IMG/VR virus record: IMGVR_UViG_3300035212_002019
Location: 1 to 64,000 of that record
Origin: a virus
Direction: 5' to 3' (one strand)
DNA length: 64,000 bases
The position numbers and the translations under genes were made by a program. The notes beneath the pieces are model-generated. The model saw nothing but the letters and a program-made list of their open reading frames with translations, did no database searches and was not told where the DNA came from. Positions 1 through 6,867 of this stretch are shown one piece after another. Numbering within the stretch: position 1 is the stretch's first letter; every line of letters starts with the position of its first letter.

Positions 1-2327
1 GTGGTTCATCAGGTACTCGTGGATCATCAGGAACATCAGGTGTTAATGGTGCTGCTGGATCAAGTGGTACTTCAGGTTCATCAGGATCAAGTGGATCATC
101 AGGATCAAGTGGATCATCAGGATCAAGTGGATCATCAGGATCAAGTGGATCAAGTGGTTCATCTGGCGTTAGTGGTGCTTCGGGCACATCAGGTTTAGGT
201 GGTTCATCTGGTACATCAGGATCAAGTGGCTCTTCAGGTAGTTCAGGATCAAGTGGCTCATCAGGCTCATCAGGCTCATCAGGCTCATCAGGTACTCGTG
301 GATCATCAGGAACATCAGGTGTTAATGGTGCTGCTGGATCAAGTGGTACTTCAGGTTCATCAGGATCAAGTGGATCATCCGGTACATCCGGTCAATCCGG
401 TATGGATGGATCCAACTCTGGTAGATGGTTTTATAACTCAGGTGTTACTGCTCCAGCCGATCCAACTGTTACTAAATTTGCTATAAATGGTACTTTAGGA
501 TCTAATAGTTGGATTTCCATAAGTTCGACTAATATAAATGGTACTAACTATACCAATTGGCTTTCAGCTTTAAATACTGCTCATACAGCTGGTAACACTG
601 TTTATTTACAGTTATATGAAGTTGGCTCTACAAACATTATAGGTATCTGGACTGTTGCTACCACTGCTATTCAATCATATGGTATTGATATAAGAGTATC
701 ACCTCTTATAGCAAATGGTTCTTTAACTAATGGTAGATCTTACACAATTTCATGGGTATTTAATGGAGCTCCTGGATCATCGGGTACATCAGGCTCATCA
801 GGATCAAGCGGTTCATCTGGTTCGTCAGGATCAAGTGGATCATCAGGAACTCGCGGATCATCAGGTACATCAGGATCAAGTGGATCATCGGGATCAAGCG
901 GTTCTTCTGGTATAAGTGGTGGTGGTTCTGCTATTGATATACAAGATGAAGGTTCTTCTATAACAACTACCGCAACTTTCTTAAATTTCACAGGTGCTGG
1001 TGTTACGGCTACACTTAATGCTACTGGTGTTGATGTTACTATCCCTGGTGGTGGTGGTGCTTCTTACCTTAAAACTTTATTTGTGGATCCAAACGGAAAT
1101 GATGTCACAGCAGCAGCATCAGCAGCAGTTGGTACAGGTGGTAGAATAGATATACCGTTTGCTACTGTGTCAGGAGCATTAAACTGGTTATTTACAAATA
1201 ATCAAAGAAGATGGACCATTTGGGTATTTCCGGGTGATTATACAGAAATAGCACCTTGGGTATTTAAAAAATCCACAGGAACCGCAACAGGTAATATTGA
1301 AGGAACAACTATTAAATTAAATGGTAGTTGTACAATTACTTTCCCGTCAGGTATTACCGCAAATGGTTCTATAAGAATGTATCAAGCAGGTTGGTTTAGT
1401 ATTATAGGAGATGCTCCGGCAAAAGGTTATGGTGGTAATTTTACTGGACCATTTGGTGGTGCTAAAATAATTACCGCTCATAATCAGACATCTGGACTTC
1501 CTTCACCTCAGTTATATATAGGTGATGGTGATATATCACTTGGTGGTCAGAGTACTGGCTCACAAGATGAGATGAGTATTAAACTACATAATATTAATTT
1601 TGAGAATTATGGCGATGCTCAAGGAAGTAACGGATATTCTGGTTGTAATATAGTATTTGGTAGACATGGTCAGATGGATTTTGAAATTGATAATTGTAAA
1701 TTTACTGCTCTCGATTCTGTGAACTTTTATGCTACCAATGGTTATGTTCAAGGTAGTAATCCAAGCGGAGCAATAGAACCACTTACTAATTGGTATTTTA
1801 CTAATACTACATGGATGACTAATTATGGAACTGTTCCTGCGGGGGCCCCAACATATGCTTATCCAAACTGGGTTTTAAATATGTATAGAAACGGATCGAA
1901 TAAACAAAGAGTTCTTTTACACAATTCTAAGTTTATTGTCACCGGTAGTGATTATTTCTTCGGAGATACTGCTGGTGGTAGTAGTGGTGGTGTTGCTGGT
2001 AATAGCGGACATATTATAACAGACAGCTACAGTACGAAAGCACACTGGTTGATGTCTTGGTCTAATAATGTTTTTTATGCGCGTGGTCAACAAATTACTA
2101 CTCTTAGTGGTAATACTTTAACATGGCATATGTGGCTTGAGATGACTGTCTGGAACTTAGCTAACGGTCTAGACTGTCTTGGAAGTTCTATATCAGATAA
2201 TCAAATAGTTGGATATGCTGGTGGTGTCGGTACTCCTGTATTTATTGATACGTTGGGTAACTTTGCTGTAGCGTTATATGGTAATAATGCTGCTGGTTCT
2301 ATAATGAATTATATAGAACAAGCTTAA
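1..2327 (+). CDS. Tail fibre/spike with collagen-like Ser-Gly stalks and C-terminal beta-helix (5' partial)
   Basis: The reading frame is open from base 3 and has no start in the window, so the N-terminus lies upstream; the ATG at 402 is internal. Visible domains in order: a Gly-X-Y stalk made almost wholly of GSS/GTS triplets (bases 3-407), a globular domain of about 120 residues, a second GSS stalk (765-920), and a roughly 460-residue C-terminal part. That part opens with LFVDPNGND and GGRIDIPFATVSGAL, the usual entry to a right-handed beta-helix (pectate-lyase-like) of phage fibres. By family knowledge this is a receptor-binding fibre or spike at the baseplate. It is convergent with, and overlaps by 4 bases, the end of a sugar-nucleotide operon. 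The Ser/Thr-rich stalks are candidate O-glycosylation targets (inference). Confidence 0.9.
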   Translation, partial: GSSGTRGSSGTSGVNGAAGSSGTSGSSGSSGSSGSSGSSGSSGSSGSSGSSGSSGVSGASGTSGLGGSSGTSGSSGSSGSSGSSGSSGSSGSSGSSGTRGSSGTSGVNGAAGSSGTSGSSGSSGSSGTSGQSGMDGSNSGRWFYNSGVTAPADPTVTKFAINGTLGSNSWISISSTNINGTNYTNWLSALNTAHTAGNTVYLQLYEVGSTNIIGIWTVATTAIQSYGIDIRVSPLIANGSLTNGRSYTISWVFNGAPGSSGTSGSSGSSGSSGSSGSSGSSGTRGSSGTSGSSGSSGSSGSSGISGGGSAIDIQDEGSSITTTATFLNFTGAGVTATLNATGVDVTIPGGGGASYLKTLFVDPNGNDVTAAASAAVGTGGRIDIPFATVSGALNWLFTNNQRRWTIWVFPGDYTEIAPWVFKKSTGTATGNIEGTTIKLNGSCTITFPSGITANGSIRMYQAGWFSIIGDAPAKGYGGNFTGPFGGAKIITAHNQTSGLPSPQLYIGDGDISLGGQSTGSQDEMSIKLHNINFENYGDAQGSNGYSGCNIVFGRHGQMDFEIDNCKFTALDSVNFYATNGYVQGSNPSGAIEPLTNWYFTNTTWMTNYGTVPAGAPTYAYPNWVLNMYRNGSNKQRVLLHNSKFIVTGSDYFFGDTAGGSSGGVAGNSGHIITDSYSTKAHWLMSWSNNVFYARGQQITTLSGNTLTWHMWLEMTVWNLANGLDCLGSSISDNQIVGYAGGVGTPVFIDTLGNFAVALYGNNAAGSIMNYIEQA
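6..100 (+). repeat. 95-bp direct repeat, copy 1 (inside fibre stalk)
   Basis: Bases 6-100 recur at 285-379 with an offset of 279 bases and no difference that I can see. The repeat encodes GTRGSSGTSGVNGAAGSSG and flanking GSS triplets. It looks like a recent in-frame duplication that lengthens the collagen-like stalk. Confidence 0.9.
285..379 (+). repeat. 95-bp direct repeat, copy 2 (inside fibre stalk)
   Basis: Second copy of the element at 6-100. The two copies flank a variable run of GSS triplets, a situation that favours recombination and stalk-length variation. Confidence 0.9.
765..920 (+). repeat. Second collagen-like GSS stalk
   Basis: About 50 codons in which every third residue is Gly and the others are almost all Ser or Thr, beginning GAPGSSGTSG and ending SSGISGGG. 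At DNA level it is an imperfect 9-bp tandem repeat using gga/ggt, tca/agt codons. It joins the globular domain to the beta-helix part of the fibre. Confidence 0.85.
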
Positions 2328-3058
2328 TTAGGTATTGCTACGCCTCTCTTTGAAACAACTATTGAAGACATTTTATTGGCAAAAATAATAGATGATTTAA
2401 TATCACCGCTTTCTATATACTTTAGAATAAAAGAAGCGGTGAATGTATCACCTGCTCCACTAACATCAATAGTTTCTTGTGGATTTGGACTAGGATATAT
2501 TTTACCATTAAATTTAGTTCCTTTACTACCTAAAGTTATTAAGATATTATTACACTCTAATAACTCAGAGTTTTGTAAAGATTCTTTTTCATTTAATTTT
2601 ACAAATGAAAAAGAGCTTATAATTTCTTTACTTAGTTTTCTTTTTGAATCTAATATAGATATTTTTGAGTTTTTACCTATTTTTAATAAATCCTCATTGT
2701 TAATAAATCCTTTATCATAATCACTTACAATTACTATACTATATTCAGATAATAGATTTAATTTAAGATTTAATTTAGATATATTTGATTCACCTTCATC
2801 TAATCTTAAAAACATATGATTACTTTTCTTTTCTACAAATCTAGTTTTAGTAATAATTTCATCTTGATGCCAATGTTCTATTAAAACATCGTTATTCATA
2901 GCTTTTAAGTTTCTAACAACATTACCAGCCATTCCATCATTTTCAACTATTTCAATAGGGTTTAGAACAGGTACTGGTGCTTCTGGACTAAATCTAGAAA
3001 CATCACAATACATAAATCTATCTGTACATTTTTCTCCTATTACTAAAATCTTAATCAT
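2324..3058 (-). CDS. PfkB-family sugar kinase, HldE kinase-domain-like (heptose-7-phosphate kinase)
   Basis: A 244-residue ribokinase-fold protein. Near the N-terminus DVSRFSPEAPVPVL followed by GMAGNVVRNL closely matches the HldE/RfaE kinase signature (DVSRISPEAPVPVV, GGAANVA). The C-terminal VSGAGDTF (GAGD about 201-204) carries the catalytic Asp. It is shorter than the usual kinase domain of about 315 residues, having lost part of the middle. Its ATG overlaps the stop of the nucleotidyltransferase gene by 4 bases, so the two are probably translationally coupled. Together they correspond to the two halves of bifunctional HldE, which makes ADP-heptose. Expected reaction: C1 phosphorylation of a heptose 7-phosphate. 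Exact substrate is inferred. Confidence 0.85.
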   Translation of the reverse strand: MIKILVIGEKCTDRFMYCDVSRFSPEAPVPVLNPIEIVENDGMAGNVVRNLKAMNNDVLIEHWHQDEIITKTRFVEKKSNHMFLRLDEGESNISKLNLKLNLLSEYSIVIVSDYDKGFINNEDLLKIGKNSKISILDSKRKLSKEIISSFSFVKLNEKESLQNSELLECNNILITLGSKGTKFNGKIYPSPNPQETIDVSGAGDTFTASFILKYIESGDIKSSIIFANKMSSIVVSKRGVAIPN

Positions 3059-3459
3059 TTATTTTCTATAATTTTTGTAGATGAGTGACCATCTATTTTA
3101 TCAAAGAATATAACTTCTTTAACTAAATGAGAGCCTATTACCTTTTTATCTTTATAATCATTTCCTACTATGATAATATCAGCATTCCACTCTTTTATTC
3201 TATCACAAAGTTCTTCATCTGTTGAGAAACTAACAGAACTATTTACATATTTAATAGAATTCATAAAATAAATTCTATCATTAATATTATTTATAGGTCT
3301 TAATTCACCTTTGAATTGTTTAACTCTATCATCTGTGTCAATGCCAACTCTTATCTCACCAAATTGACTGGCAAATTCTAATAGTTTGATGTGACCTATA
3401 TGTAAAACATCAAAGGTTCCATTAACCCAAACTTTTACTTCTGTGAATCGCCTTTCCAT
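3055..3459 (-). CDS. Cytidylyltransferase-fold nucleotidyltransferase, HldE C-domain-like (ADP-heptose synthase)
   Basis: A 134-residue protein of the nucleotidyltransferase superfamily. NGTFDVLHIGHIKLL (HxGH at about 20-23) is the nucleotide-binding motif, DIIIVGNDYKDKKVIG and the terminal GHSSTKII are typical of the HldE/TagD/RfaE2 branch. It should transfer AMP from ATP to a heptose 1-phosphate. It lies between the cupin gene (overlap 25 bases) and the kinase gene (overlap 4 bases) in one minus-strand operon. In most bacteria the kinase and this domain are fused; here they are separate, as in HldA/HldC pathways. Confidence 0.87.
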   Translation of the reverse strand: MERRFTEVKVWVNGTFDVLHIGHIKLLEFASQFGEIRVGIDTDDRVKQFKGELRPINNINDRIYFMNSIKYVNSSVSFSTDEELCDRIKEWNADIIIVGNDYKDKKVIGSHLVKEVIFFDKIDGHSSTKIIENK

Positions 3460-3821
3460 ACTCTATATGAATCAGAATCTGAGTGTGTTGTTGATACTTC
3501 AAAGATAACTCCATCGGTTAAAGCTTCTAACTGATGAGGTTGACCAGGTCTTTGTCTTACTGTATCACCTTCAACTAATTTTTGTTCTATAACATCGGCA
3601 GTTTCAGTGTCTATCCAACGATATAAGAATTCACCTTTATCAACATACCAAGTTTCATCTTTAATCATATGATAGTGCATTGAAAACTTAGCACCTTTAT
3701 TAAAACAAAGTAACTTACCGCAGTAAAGTTCATTGTTTTCTATAATAATTTCTTTACCCCATCCTTTTGGGACACAACACCCTTCTGTATGAAGTGCGTT
3801 TATAACAATTGGTTTATCCAT
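3435..3821 (-). CDS. Single-domain cupin (sugar-phosphate isomerase-like)
   Basis: A 128-residue cupin. GWGKEIII near residue 20, SMHYHMIKDETWYV and the later RQRPGQPHQLEAL form the two cupin motifs with metal-binding His and Glu residues, and resemble small mannose-6-phosphate isomerase-type cupins found in sugar-nucleotide clusters. It directly abuts the heptosyltransferase gene upstream (0-1 base) and overlaps the nucleotidyltransferase gene. The context suggests a step in sugar supply, such as isomerisation, or a regulatory sugar-binding role. The exact reaction cannot be read from the sequence. Confidence 0.75.
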   Translation of the reverse strand: MDKPIVINALHTEGCCVPKGWGKEIIIENNELYCGKLLCFNKGAKFSMHYHMIKDETWYVDKGEFLYRWIDTETADVIEQKLVEGDTVRQRPGQPHQLEALTDGVIFEVSTTHSDSDSYRVWKGDSQK

Positions 3822-6005
3822 TTATAAAACTTGATTGATTTTGTCAATCACCATTTTTGAGGTAATACTTTTAGTACACTCAAATTGTCTTTCTGTATTT
3901 TGATGATCTGGACACCAATTCCAATCACTGGCATTTAATCTGTATCTATTGAAACATCCGGTACAAACATTCTTATTTATAACACGGTAAGTATCTAATG
4001 TTGTTTCGCTATATTCTTCACTAAATCCAGAAATTAAGACAACTGGTAGTTCACACGCCCAAGCTAACCAACTTAAACCAGATCCTAAGCCAACAAAGAA
4101 TTCACAAGAAGCCATATCTTCGATTAATCTTTCAATAGAACCTGCTTCAAATTTAGTTATACCTTTTGGATGAAAATTACCCATATAACCATCATTTTCC
4201 TTTGAATAAAGAACAACTTCATATCCTAAAGATGTTAAATAATCAACGACTTCTTGCCAACCAGTTGGATTGTTCCAATATTTTGCTTGACAAGTTGAGT
4301 GTAAACCAATTCCTACTTTCTTTTTCTTTTCCACTTTTGGAATATTTAATAATGGTCTAGTTTCTTTATAATCTAATCCTAAAATATCAGAGGCTGTTTT
4401 TTGTAAAGGCTCTTTTCTAAAATCATTTGGATTTTTAGATACATCAAATTTATCATCTTTATAAAACCAACCTATTTTATACATAGCATAAATATTGTTT
4501 GCTGCCATTCCCGGTTCTATAAATTCAATATCTGGGTAAGAATCTTTAAATAAATAATTCATAAAAGTAGAAACAATTAAGTGGCATTGATGTTTATCTT
4601 TGAATTCTCTAATATAAGGAACCCAAGATAAAGTATCACCTAAAGAACTACTATCTAAACAGATATAAACTCTTTTACCTTTTAAATCTAAGGTATAATC
4701 ATGTATTAAATATCCATCTTCCCAAATTTTGGTATTCCATTTCGTGAAATATTCTCTATTTAACTTAACCCAGTGGTTTATTGATAAGTTTTCTGAATAG
4801 TGACATCTTCCTTCTTCATCATAAAATTCAATCTTGAATTTACTCTCACTCACTCCTTTTATTTCTAAAAAAGGATTCAAAATAAAATTTTGAATAATCT
4901 CAGGTTTGGGAGTAAATACAGATTGTTCCATTACTGGCATTCTGTGAATTTTTTTATAGAAATTAGAGTAGTTATTCTCAAATGATTCAGACTCATCTTC
5001 TACTACATATTTATTTTCAGAAGAAAGAAGTGAGATTATTTTATATTTAGTTGATGTTATATCTCCATCTATTTCTGTTATGTATGGTGTAAACATATCC
5101 ATATATTGTTCAAGATTTCTTGACAATATTTTTAGTCCAAAAGAAGCGGCTTCTCTTAGAACTAACGGATTACACTCCCAAGTTGAGTTAAACATAAATA
5201 AATCTGCGGCTTTCATGAAATTTTCAACATCAGATCTCTCATCCCATACAGTTACATTTGATGGTAGGTCACTCATTATTGGTCCCCAATATTCTTCAAA
5301 ATTTGGTGCTTGATTTCCAATAAAATGAAATTGAATTTCTGGATTAGATTCTTCTAAAGACTTTGCTACTTCAACTCCTTCTTTTTGATTTTTACCAGAT
5401 GTCCATAAACCTACGTTAATAATATGTTTTTTATTAGGATCCATTCCTAATAAAGCTTTAGCTTCTAGTTTTTCTAAATATGTAGGTACTTTATTTTCTA
5501 TTGGAAAAGGTAGAACTTCAGCATATGATGGCATTTCCGAGAAGGTTTTAAATTTATGCCATGGTGTACAAAAAGCATATCCATCAGGATTATATCTTTT
5601 AGATGTATTTGGATTAAACCAAACATTATGACAAGTTTCTACTATTTTCCAAGTTCTATCATTGTTATATAAGTCATTAAACATAGAATCTGGTATTCTA
5701 TTTGAATGTTCAAAAGCTTCTAAAATCTCATCAGCATGTACTATATCTATATTATTATCTTTGATAATATTCATTAATAATGACTTATCTTCATATAGGG
5801 TAAAGAAATTTTCCGGCTTAATTATTTTTTTGATTTCATTTTTTTGAACAACATATGCCCATCCGCCAATATCAGCATATTCAACAACAAACAGTTCAAA
5901 GTTTTCGTTATTCATAAGAGCTTTTATTCTTCTTAATAGAAATGATGGCATTCCTCCTGTTGATAAATGAGGTGCTAAAAAAAGTATCTTTATTTTTTCC
6001 GACAT
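3822..6005 (-). CDS. Fused GT4-like glycosyltransferase and TibC-like O-heptosyltransferase
   Basis: A 727-residue two-domain enzyme. Residues 1 to about 370 resemble GT-B retaining glycosyltransferases (GT4): LAPHLSTGGMPSFLLRR at the start, NVGLWTSGKNQ, and NSTWECNPLVLREAASFG for the donor-binding helix. The rest resembles autotransporter O-heptosyltransferases (TibC/BAHT, GT9-like): SSLGDTLSWVPYI, PLQKTASDILGLDY, GLHSTCQAKYWNNP, and a C-terminal four-cysteine finger CTGC, WNWCP, FECTKSI (Cys 681, 684, 698, 710) matching the iron finger of that family. TibC adds heptose from ADP-heptose to serines. It heads the operon with HldE-like genes. The N-terminal domain could extend the first sugar. 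Acceptor is inferred, not shown. Confidence 0.85.
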   Translation of the reverse strand: MSEKIKILFLAPHLSTGGMPSFLLRRIKALMNNENFELFVVEYADIGGWAYVVQKNEIKKIIKPENFFTLYEDKSLLMNIIKDNNIDIVHADEILEAFEHSNRIPDSMFNDLYNNDRTWKIVETCHNVWFNPNTSKRYNPDGYAFCTPWHKFKTFSEMPSYAEVLPFPIENKVPTYLEKLEAKALLGMDPNKKHIINVGLWTSGKNQKEGVEVAKSLEESNPEIQFHFIGNQAPNFEEYWGPIMSDLPSNVTVWDERSDVENFMKAADLFMFNSTWECNPLVLREAASFGLKILSRNLEQYMDMFTPYITEIDGDITSTKYKIISLLSSENKYVVEDESESFENNYSNFYKKIHRMPVMEQSVFTPKPEIIQNFILNPFLEIKGVSESKFKIEFYDEEGRCHYSENLSINHWVKLNREYFTKWNTKIWEDGYLIHDYTLDLKGKRVYICLDSSSLGDTLSWVPYIREFKDKHQCHLIVSTFMNYLFKDSYPDIEFIEPGMAANNIYAMYKIGWFYKDDKFDVSKNPNDFRKEPLQKTASDILGLDYKETRPLLNIPKVEKKKKVGIGLHSTCQAKYWNNPTGWQEVVDYLTSLGYEVVLYSKENDGYMGNFHPKGITKFEAGSIERLIEDMASCEFFVGLGSGLSWLAWACELPVVLISGFSEEYSETTLDTYRVINKNVCTGCFNRYRLNASDWNWCPDHQNTERQFECTKSITSKMVIDKINQVL

Positions 6006-6040: not shown

Positions 6041-6087
6041 AATTACAATAAAGTTATATAATGAATAATTAAAAAGTGCCTATAGAA

Positions 6088-6098
6088 TTTAATATATA
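6088..6098 (+). promoter_or_regulatory. Candidate late promoter element, 4 nt before ATG
   Basis: TTTAATATATA, then CAGT, then the ATG at 6103. It belongs to the short-spacing group; if the element is a -10 box the transcript would be leaderless or nearly so. Confidence 0.6.
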
Positions 6099-6102
6099 CA
6101 GT

Positions 6103-6867
6103 ATGAAACTTGTAAAATATTTTGAATTCAATCAACAAGATTTAGAACCTATTAAGTCTTTTTATCTTAAAGATGAATTGAATCCTAAGCTATGGGATGA
6201 TTTTAAATTAGAAGATGAAGTTAGAGAACAATTATTACAAATTGCTCAAGACTTTTATGAAAAAGTTGAATTATCTTCCGATGTTGTTGATATTGTTCTT
6301 ACTGGTTCTTTGTGTAATTATAACTGGTCTGAAAAATATTCAGATTATGATTTACACGTTATCATTGATTTTGATGATGTTGATGATAATTTCGAATTAG
6401 TTGAAAAGGCATGTGATTATGCTAAGAAAGTTTGGAATGCTCAACACGATATCAAAATTAAAAACTACGAAGTTGAAATAGCTATTCAAGATAATGATGA
6501 TTTAGGTAAAGCTATTGAAGGTGGTAGAATGGGCGGTGTTTTTTCACTATTAAATAATAGATGGATTAAAAGACCTGAAAGAGCAGATTTTGAACCAGAT
6601 GAAAAACTTATATCTGAAAAAGCTAAAACTATTATGATGTCGGTTGATGATATTGAAGAAGAATCAGAAGAAGATAAATATGAAGCTTTTGATGAAAAAA
6701 TATCTAAAGTTTGGAAAAAGATAAAAGATTATAGACAAAGTGGTTTAGAATCTGAGAGTGGTGAGTATTCAGTAGGTAACTTAGTTTTTAAGTTGCTAAG
6801 AAGAAATGGTTACGTTGGTAAAATAATGGAACTAAAGAGAAAAGTTTACGATAATCAATTTAAATAA
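6103..6867 (+). CDS. Pol-beta-fold nucleotidyltransferase with capsid-targeting-like N-terminus
   Basis: The start at 6103 is preferred over an in-frame GTG at 6076 because the promoter-like element ends 4 bases before it and the product then begins MKLVKYFEFN, like the capsid-targeting family in this phage. In the 254-residue product, LTGSLCNYNW followed by SDYDLHVIID (Gly68-Ser69, Asp81, Asp83) is the hG[GS]...DhD signature of the DNA polymerase beta nucleotidyltransferase superfamily, and Glu125 in EVEIA can be the third carboxylate. Such enzymes transfer NMP to proteins, RNA or small molecules; the target is unknown. The C-terminus is helical and acidic. Followed after 2 bases by the next gene. 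Confidence 0.8.
   Translation: MKLVKYFEFNQQDLEPIKSFYLKDELNPKLWDDFKLEDEVREQLLQIAQDFYEKVELSSDVVDIVLTGSLCNYNWSEKYSDYDLHVIIDFDDVDDNFELVEKACDYAKKVWNAQHDIKIKNYEVEIAIQDNDDLGKAIEGGRMGGVFSLLNNRWIKRPERADFEPDEKLISEKAKTIMMSVDDIEEESEEDKYEAFDEKISKVWKKIKDYRQSGLESESGEYSVGNLVFKLLRRNGYVGKIMELKRKVYDNQFK

Follow-up and report, generated by a model that had tools for sequence, protein, structure and literature searches.

Introduction

The closest described relatives of the system analysed here are the autotransporter O-heptosyltransferases of the TibC/AAH type (BAHT; TIGR04414, PDB 4rap). According to the available excerpt of PMC4358343, TibC itself modifies beta-helix repeats and has a catalytic base (Asp110), donor residues (Thr226, Lys230 and Trp305), an iron finger with four Cys residues and an Arg286 that contacts adenine and is reported to be essential. 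Here we describe a relative of these enzymes from positions 1 to 64,000 (hereafter the window) of an IMG/VR virus record of 82,062 bases (IMGVR_UViG_3300035212_002019), encoded by a minus-strand operon of four genes (glycosyltransferase, cupin, nucleotidyltransferase and kinase; 2324-6005) that converges on the gene of a fibre with GSS/GTS repeats. With a probability of about three in four, we consider that this TibC-type enzyme would act in the cytoplasm to heptosylate the GSS/GTS stalk of the fibre that the phage itself encodes, the phage enzymes boosting the supply of ADP-heptose.

Like the canonical BAHT enzymes, the phage transferase scores over the curated family cut-off, keeps the catalytic Asp, the equivalents of Thr226, Lys230 and Trp305 and the four Cys residues, and is adjoined by the gene of a repeat protein. 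It differs from them in its score (about 300 bits versus about 655), in having a G-[ST]-[ST] repeat protein as neighbour and not an AIDA-like or autotransporter beta-helix protein, in its fusion to a GT4 domain and in not keeping Arg286. Kinase, nucleotidyltransferase and cupin genes related to those of the window are found in the ADP-heptose gene set of the cyanophages S-CAM1, S-SM2 and Sf-CH8, in which, unlike the window phage, no TibC relative was found at E 1e-5; the cyanophage records are further annotated with an epimerase, a short 'phosphoheptose isomerase' or both. Glycans on virion proteins have been reported for mycobacteriophages, on capsid and tail-tube subunits (cited in PMC12619734, available in excerpt); a virion protein would likewise be glycosylated here, the differences being the collagen-like fibre and the heptosyltransferase that we propose. 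No phage-encoded BAHT or heptosylated collagen-like fibre was found among the matches listed in the PMC literature, in which subscription papers and preprints are little covered.

Results

The locus was characterised by its gene content, homology and conserved catalytic residues and by its genomic pairing with GTS/GSS repeats, which was found in phages and in cells. An earlier, sequence-only reading of the window had described an operon with separate kinase and nucleotidyltransferase genes, a 4-base overlap with the fibre gene and a TibC-like C-terminal half of the transferase with a four-Cys finger. The open reading frames (ORFs) were found at these places (fibre and kinase overlap at 2324-2327), and the proposed comparison with the BAHT family bore out the rest, since TIGR04414 (autotransporter O-heptosyltransferase, Aah/TibC) matched residues 386-726 of the transferase with 296 bits (E 2.7e-88; cut-off 200). 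The match to TibC (PDB 4rap) had an E of 1.5e-64, and TibC residues Asp110, Thr226, Lys230 and Trp305 corresponded to D457, T571, K575 and W646 of the phage protein. The iron-finger Cys residues corresponded to C681, C684, C698 and C710, which are predicted to bind iron. All 18 aligned phage domains had the same residues at these eight positions, and each domain matched TIGR04414 at E 0.001 or better (best E 9.3e-99). Residues 186-332, for which the sequence-only reading had proposed nothing, matched Glycos_transf_1 (GT4 type), and the GT4 domain had a tblastn match in 57 of the 80 viral TibC loci described below, suggesting that the fused domain likely carries out a second glycosylation step. 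The predicted structure of the full-length transferase was too poor for use (predicted local distance difference test, pLDDT, 51.6), for instance in a comparison with the dodecameric ring that characterises BAHT enzymes.

The best 80 of the 259 TibC-type viral loci found were inspected for G-[ST]-[ST] runs; near-copies were included, so loci were also counted as clusters at 90% identity. Such a run was present in 34 of the 80 loci and in 25 of 50 clusters, and when the remaining 46 were searched over their whole records the strict pattern turned up in two more (L038 and L052), giving 36/80. The pairing was seen within about 5 kb in Microcystis phage Mel-JY01, which is an isolate, and in a 735-kb megaphage; a 636-kb megaphage had the enzyme and no G-[ST]-[ST] repeat within 12 kb. 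In Mel-JY01 a 1227-aa protein annotated as methyltransferase FkbM (L003 4747-8430) has a TibC-type C-terminal domain and is flanked on both sides by GTS-repeat ORFs.

The association was also tested in reverse, on contigs picked by the G-[ST]-[ST] repeat pattern and then checked for an open collagen frame, the control being a repeat in which G is combined with Pro, Ala, Gln, His, Asp or Glu. The frame check kept 104 of 120 G-[ST]-[ST] stretches and 108 of 118 control stretches, and 50 of each were searched in number order (L155 was left out as it is the same contig as L103). TIGR04414 was found in 17 of the 50 G-[ST]-[ST] collagen records (15 over the cut-off) and in none of the 50 control-collagen records (Fisher p 3e-6); when only records of 20-100 kb were considered, the figures were 9/27 and 0/28 (p 7e-4). 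The repeat lay 7 kb or less from the transferase in 12 of the 17 records bearing TIGR04414. For records longer than 40 kb this was the case in 9 of 12, and uniform placement, assuming repeat spans of 8 or 20 kb, would give 2.8 to 4.3 (P 1e-4 to 4e-3). The sequence-only reading had put forward co-occurrence of the operon with GSS-repeat fibres as a check; for the transferase, such an association was found in both directions.

One group of phages (L034, L038, L043, L050 and L068) had a different layout, with GT4 and TibC as separate genes followed by nucleotidyltransferase and kinase (not in L050). Upstream of these genes is a protein of about 2,300 aa that is rich in Ser/Thr (beyond the locus in L043), and those loci that extend far enough have a terminase-like ORF downstream (by eye). 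The neighbouring giant tail protein contains 20-23% Ser/Thr, and no GSS repeat was present within the fetched loci of this group. That the group lacks G-[ST]-[ST] repeats altogether was ruled out, because two records of the group, those of L038 (G151) and L052 (G160), carry repeats outside the fetched locus, which weakens one argument against heptosylation of the stalk.

A scan of bacterial assemblies gave 13 relatives of the transferase. A GTS/GSS-repeat ORF, defined as having four or more G[ST][ST]G motifs, was present in 11 of the 13 loci and within 1.2 kb in 10. One of the 13, binned as Rickettsiaceae (L440), has phage-like gene content (by eye); when it was excluded the ORF was present in 10 of 12 loci, nine within 1.1 kb, the two loci without it being L447 (a 4.9-kb contig) and L450. 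The bacterial partners were 102-484 aa long, several had an apparent signal peptide or lipoprotein leader, and they differed from each other outside the repeats (both by eye).

The two types of enzyme could be compared within 151 sampled genomes of the order of Methylobacter, nine of which had TIGR04414 over the cut-off. The canonical type, of about 655 bits, was represented by four genes in three genomes, each beside an NSGG-repeat ORF of 617-2902 aa (by eye), and the single such ORF scanned had a Pfam AIDA match. The type of about 300 bits was found in six genomes (L441, L442, L444 and L459-L461), each time adjoining, within about 250 bases, a GTS ORF with 6 to 17 motifs. The canonical genes beside NSGG-repeat, AIDA-like ORFs serve as a positive control, and thus in the TIGR04414 family the neighbour tells the acceptor. 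A strict six-triplet pattern was present in five of the six genomes with the 300-bit type and in 6 of the 145 others (none of the three canonical ones; p 4e-6), the match lying elsewhere in the genome for two of the five (G192 and G331).

TibC-like enzymes with the gene of a short, apparently exported GTS/GSS protein no more than about 1.1 kb away were seen in Methylobacter, Methylomicrobium, Polaromonas and other proteobacteria (L441-L444, L446, L448, L449, L451, L452 and L459-L461).

A tree of 59 transferase domains was built in which all 15 cellular rows were labelled as GTS-associated, including L447 and L450, for which no GTS ORF was found, and in which the label for phages without repeats means no run in the fetched stretch (L063 has one six-triplet run only) and does not cover the whole record. 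The canonical enzymes formed one separate group (support 100/99), and phage and bacterial rows near GTS repeats were interleaved. Seven phage rows of the giant-tail-protein group formed a single clade (100/99), with the GTS-associated L020 as sister (93/87, not starred); L038 belongs to this clade and L052 is a further member of the group, both with repeats elsewhere in their records. The remaining rows without a nearby run were scattered or long-branched, and deep forks were poorly supported.

The features of the locus are listed in Table 1. The fibre matched Collagen (PF01391, E 2.6e-21) and PHROG tail fibre families, and its visible part has 64 triplets with 104 Ser/Thr in all, followed by a non-collagen C-terminus. 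Relatives have much longer repeat-bearing open frames, exceeding 2,600 codons in L011 (2694) and L032 (2626), both of which run off the locus. The same cassette is close to contig ends in several relatives (L006-L010), which would fit assemblies breaking inside repeats. Within the operon, nucleotidyltransferase and kinase overlap by 4 bases and cupin and nucleotidyltransferase by 25, and the transferase stop abuts the cupin ATG; promoter and terminator scans gave chance-level results only. The record also contains tail-sheath, portal, protease, capsid and terminase genes, and so belongs to a contractile-tailed phage.

Table 1. Positions of the fibre gene, the converging operon and their predicted domains in the window
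Feature	Position	Strand	Basis and remarks
Tail-fibre-like protein with G-[ST]-[ST] collagen-like repeats, proposed acceptor	3..2327	+	ORF of 774 aa, 5' open at contig edge
First visible GSS/GTS run	3..416	+	46 triplets, 74 Ser/Thr
Second GSS/GTS run	765..926	+	18 triplets, 30 Ser/Thr
Non-collagen C-terminal part of fibre, putative tip	1002..2327	+	
Short HldE-N/HldA-like PfkB kinase, 244 aa	2324..3058	-	PfkB; rfaE_dom_I; phrog_8133
HldE-C-like nucleotidyltransferase, heptose-1-P adenylyltransferase-like, 134 aa	3055..3459	-	rfaE_dom_II; phrog_7878
Small cupin, 128 aa	3435..3821	-	Frequent partner of phage heptose genes
Two-domain glycosyltransferase, 727 aa	3822..6005	-	N-terminal GT4 type, C-terminal TibC-type O-heptosyltransferase
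TibC/AAH-type domain	3825..4865	-	TIGR04414; alignment to TibC residues
GT4-type domain, possible second sugar step	4866..6005	-	PF00534

The best NCBIfam match of the kinase was rfaE_dom_I (118 bits), in a shortened protein, and that of the nucleotidyltransferase was rfaE_dom_II (89 bits). The best PDB match of the kinase was D-beta-D-heptose 7-phosphate kinase (4e84, E 5e-13), and the nucleotidyltransferase matched cytidylyltransferases that share its fold (best E 7.7e-19). The kinase has a GAGD stretch, which we take to be a motif of such enzymes. In the cupin, H49, H51, E56 and H96 (HxH-x4-E and a later His) were invariant in alignments of 22 and 19 rows and are presumably metal-site residues. 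Among the best 80 of 181 viral cupin loci, a nucleotidyltransferase was present within 8 kb in 58 and a kinase in 54, which makes the cupin a regular component of the phage heptose gene set. The SIS_2/GmhA family (PF13580) was searched for in 50 of these 80 cupin loci and in 40 of the 80 TibC loci, longer contigs being favoured: it was absent from all 50 cupin records, and none of the 40 TibC records, which had no cupin match in the locus, gave a match over the cut-off (two weak matches fell below it). It is thinkable that the cupin acts in the same pathway as a cupin-type phosphoheptose isomerase replacing GmhA, because no cupin record had GmhA and the metal-site residues are invariant. Against this idea, GmhA over the cut-off was also absent from the 40 TibC records, and hosts may supply the step. 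A fold search with the cupin was not diagnostic: it matched cupins in general, with oxalate decarboxylase in first place and cupin phosphoglucose isomerase at ranks 36 and 43. Two weak matches, of the kind expected by chance, came from a profile search against PDB sequences. The epimerase and the short presumed phosphatase of cyanophages had no match in the 82-kb record.

Separately, S-CAM1 encodes a 107-aa protein annotated as phosphoheptose isomerase (L340 9808-10131) that has no Pfam match; a DxDGT stretch near its start looks to us HAD-like, an assumption that Pfam does not confirm.

Discussion

The operon is proposed to be a virion-glycosylation cassette. With ADP-heptose as donor, the TibC-type domain would place heptose on Ser/Thr residues in the Gly-[Ser/Thr]-[Ser/Thr] triplets of the fibre, working in the cytoplasm of the host either ahead of tail assembly or while it proceeds. 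The fused GT4 domain would probably add a second sugar or work on that product too. The kinase and nucleotidyltransferase would top up the donor starting from heptose phosphates, and the cupin would belong to the same pathway, in which it may be a cupin-type phosphoheptose isomerase. The acceptor, the donor, the order of the steps and the benefit to the phage are what we infer here. For the stalk, such a modification might mean greater stiffness, shielding from proteases or host defences, or a tuning of receptor binding. That a phage decorates its own GSS/GTS fibre by means of a TibC-type enzyme, as the sequence-only reading had suggested, is supported by the association in phages, the collagen control and the pairing in cells. 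We favour the view that the transferase represents a BAHT-like subfamily that would act on a triplet repeat in place of the beta-helix of an autotransporter. It belongs to the family by sequence but has neither an autotransporter neighbour nor Arg286, and is therefore classed as a variant.

Several observations weigh against this reading. No G-[ST]-[ST] repeat was found in 44 of the 80 TibC-type viral records, many of which are short fragments, and 33 of the 50 G-[ST]-[ST] collagen records had no TIGR04414. Five of the 17 records with both had no repeat within 7 kb of the enzyme (one 13 kb away, four with none in the fetched stretch). The equivalent of Arg286 was kept in 4/4 canonical rows and in only 3/20 others, the window having Leu; this replacement is a real difference and could affect the choice of donor. 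Among the cellular genomes the strict pattern reversed matched 7 of 151 (none of the six with the 300-bit type), so part of the background of the strict pattern consists of plain DNA repeats. Donor synthesis is only partly phage-encoded, and the kinase and nucleotidyltransferase are both below their equivalog cut-offs (345 and 181 bits). A kinase or nucleotidyltransferase was near TibC in only 27 of the 80 phage loci and a cupin in 7, and TibC was present in only 8 of the 80 cupin loci, which implies that the heptose gene set also serves other transferases.

Accounts of two points in the sequence-only reading have to be modified in this light. Its assignment of the kinase and nucleotidyltransferase to HldE families held as to the best-matching families and fell short as to score, and its statement that the phage makes the donor stands for these two steps and not for the others, GmhA over the cut-off having been found in 0/90 related records and the epimerase not having been matched. 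Operons without Ser-rich fibres, which it had named as counter-evidence, may be represented by the giant-tail-protein group, with no GSS repeat in its loci, repeats elsewhere in two records and a Ser/Thr-rich neighbour.

The alternative that survives best, and which we still regard as unlikely, is that the operon alters the host surface (lipopolysaccharide, LPS, or other glycans), for example blocking superinfection. This is the usual reading of phage rfaE and glycosyltransferase genes; in pelagimyophages such genes were interpreted by the authors as modifying the O-chain (PMC7029224, available in excerpt). The related kinase, nucleotidyltransferase and cupin of cyanophages stand among other sugar genes, and no such cyanophage was among the four records with a TibC match. 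The window phage itself has further glycosyltransferases, in a second group of sugar-transfer genes at 71,959-78,792 of the record (L002 7959-14792) that includes a 1211-aa protein with GT2, GT25 and GT4-type matches. However, the transferase is of TibC type, and LPS heptosyltransferase models match it far more weakly: the LPS heptosyltransferase I model gave a weak match in 12 of the 18 aligned phage domains (best 7.9e-9). A grouping of the transferase with LPS-modifying enzymes, which the sequence-only reading had specified as contrary evidence, was therefore not seen, and the GTS/GSS pairing holds on bacterial contigs too. An LPS-type heptosyltransferase (WaaC/F) was dropped on these hidden Markov model (HMM) scores, and for DNA modification the HMM searches of the operon proteins gave no supporting family match.

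It is also quite unlikely that the enzyme targets the fibre's non-collagen C-terminus or some other tail protein, with the G-[ST]-[ST] stalk as a bystander. The beta-helix acceptor of TibC (PMC4358343, excerpt) and the phage group in which the enzyme stands beside a giant Ser/Thr-rich protein would agree with it. Outside its own record, however, the C-terminal part of the fibre had a homologue in only one other contig (3300032292_001093; 78%, tblastn, L001-L101), whereas the G-[ST]-[ST] repeat recurs, and the bacterial partners share the GTS/GSS repeats and not the remainder. A PDB sequence search with this C-terminal part gave no match at E 0.1.

Finally, that tail-fibre regions of large phages merely gather repeats and glycosyltransferases alike, by shared region or lineage, is very improbable: fibre and glycosyltransferase genes do lie in one hypervariable region in pelagimyophages (PMC7029224, excerpt) and the G-[ST]-[ST] records were larger in sum than the controls (2.75 vs 1.66 Mb), but TIGR04414 was found in none of the 50 records with other collagen repeats, the contrast persisted in records of 20-100 kb and the same adjacency is found on bacterial contigs.

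Heptosylation of the fibre stalk by the TibC-type enzyme may be part of a wider picture. The odds seem to us evenly balanced on the existence of a heptosyltransferase subfamily of large phages and bacteria dedicated to Gly-[Ser/Thr]-[Ser/Thr] repeats, which would produce densely heptosylated collagen-like rods, namely phage tail fibres carrying as many as a thousand Ser/Thr or more and, in methanotrophs and other bacteria, short GTS proteins that are apparently exported, with a cupin replacing GmhA in the phage version. If true, fibres of phages that are glycosylated could be spotted by a sequence rule, and a reason would be suggested for the recurrence of collagen-like stalks rich in Ser/Thr among phages. 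It would also allow rfaE and other phage genes labelled 'LPS' to be read differently, and bacterial GTS-repeat proteins would gain a probable modifying enzyme.

Two further genes of the record were noted. One encodes a NADAR-domain protein (L002 759-1262). The other, at 6076-6867 of the window, encodes a protein without a Pfam match whose GS...SDYDLHV stretch, by eye, we take to resemble the motif of polymerase-beta-type nucleotidyltransferases; a similar protein is present in the phage-like L440.

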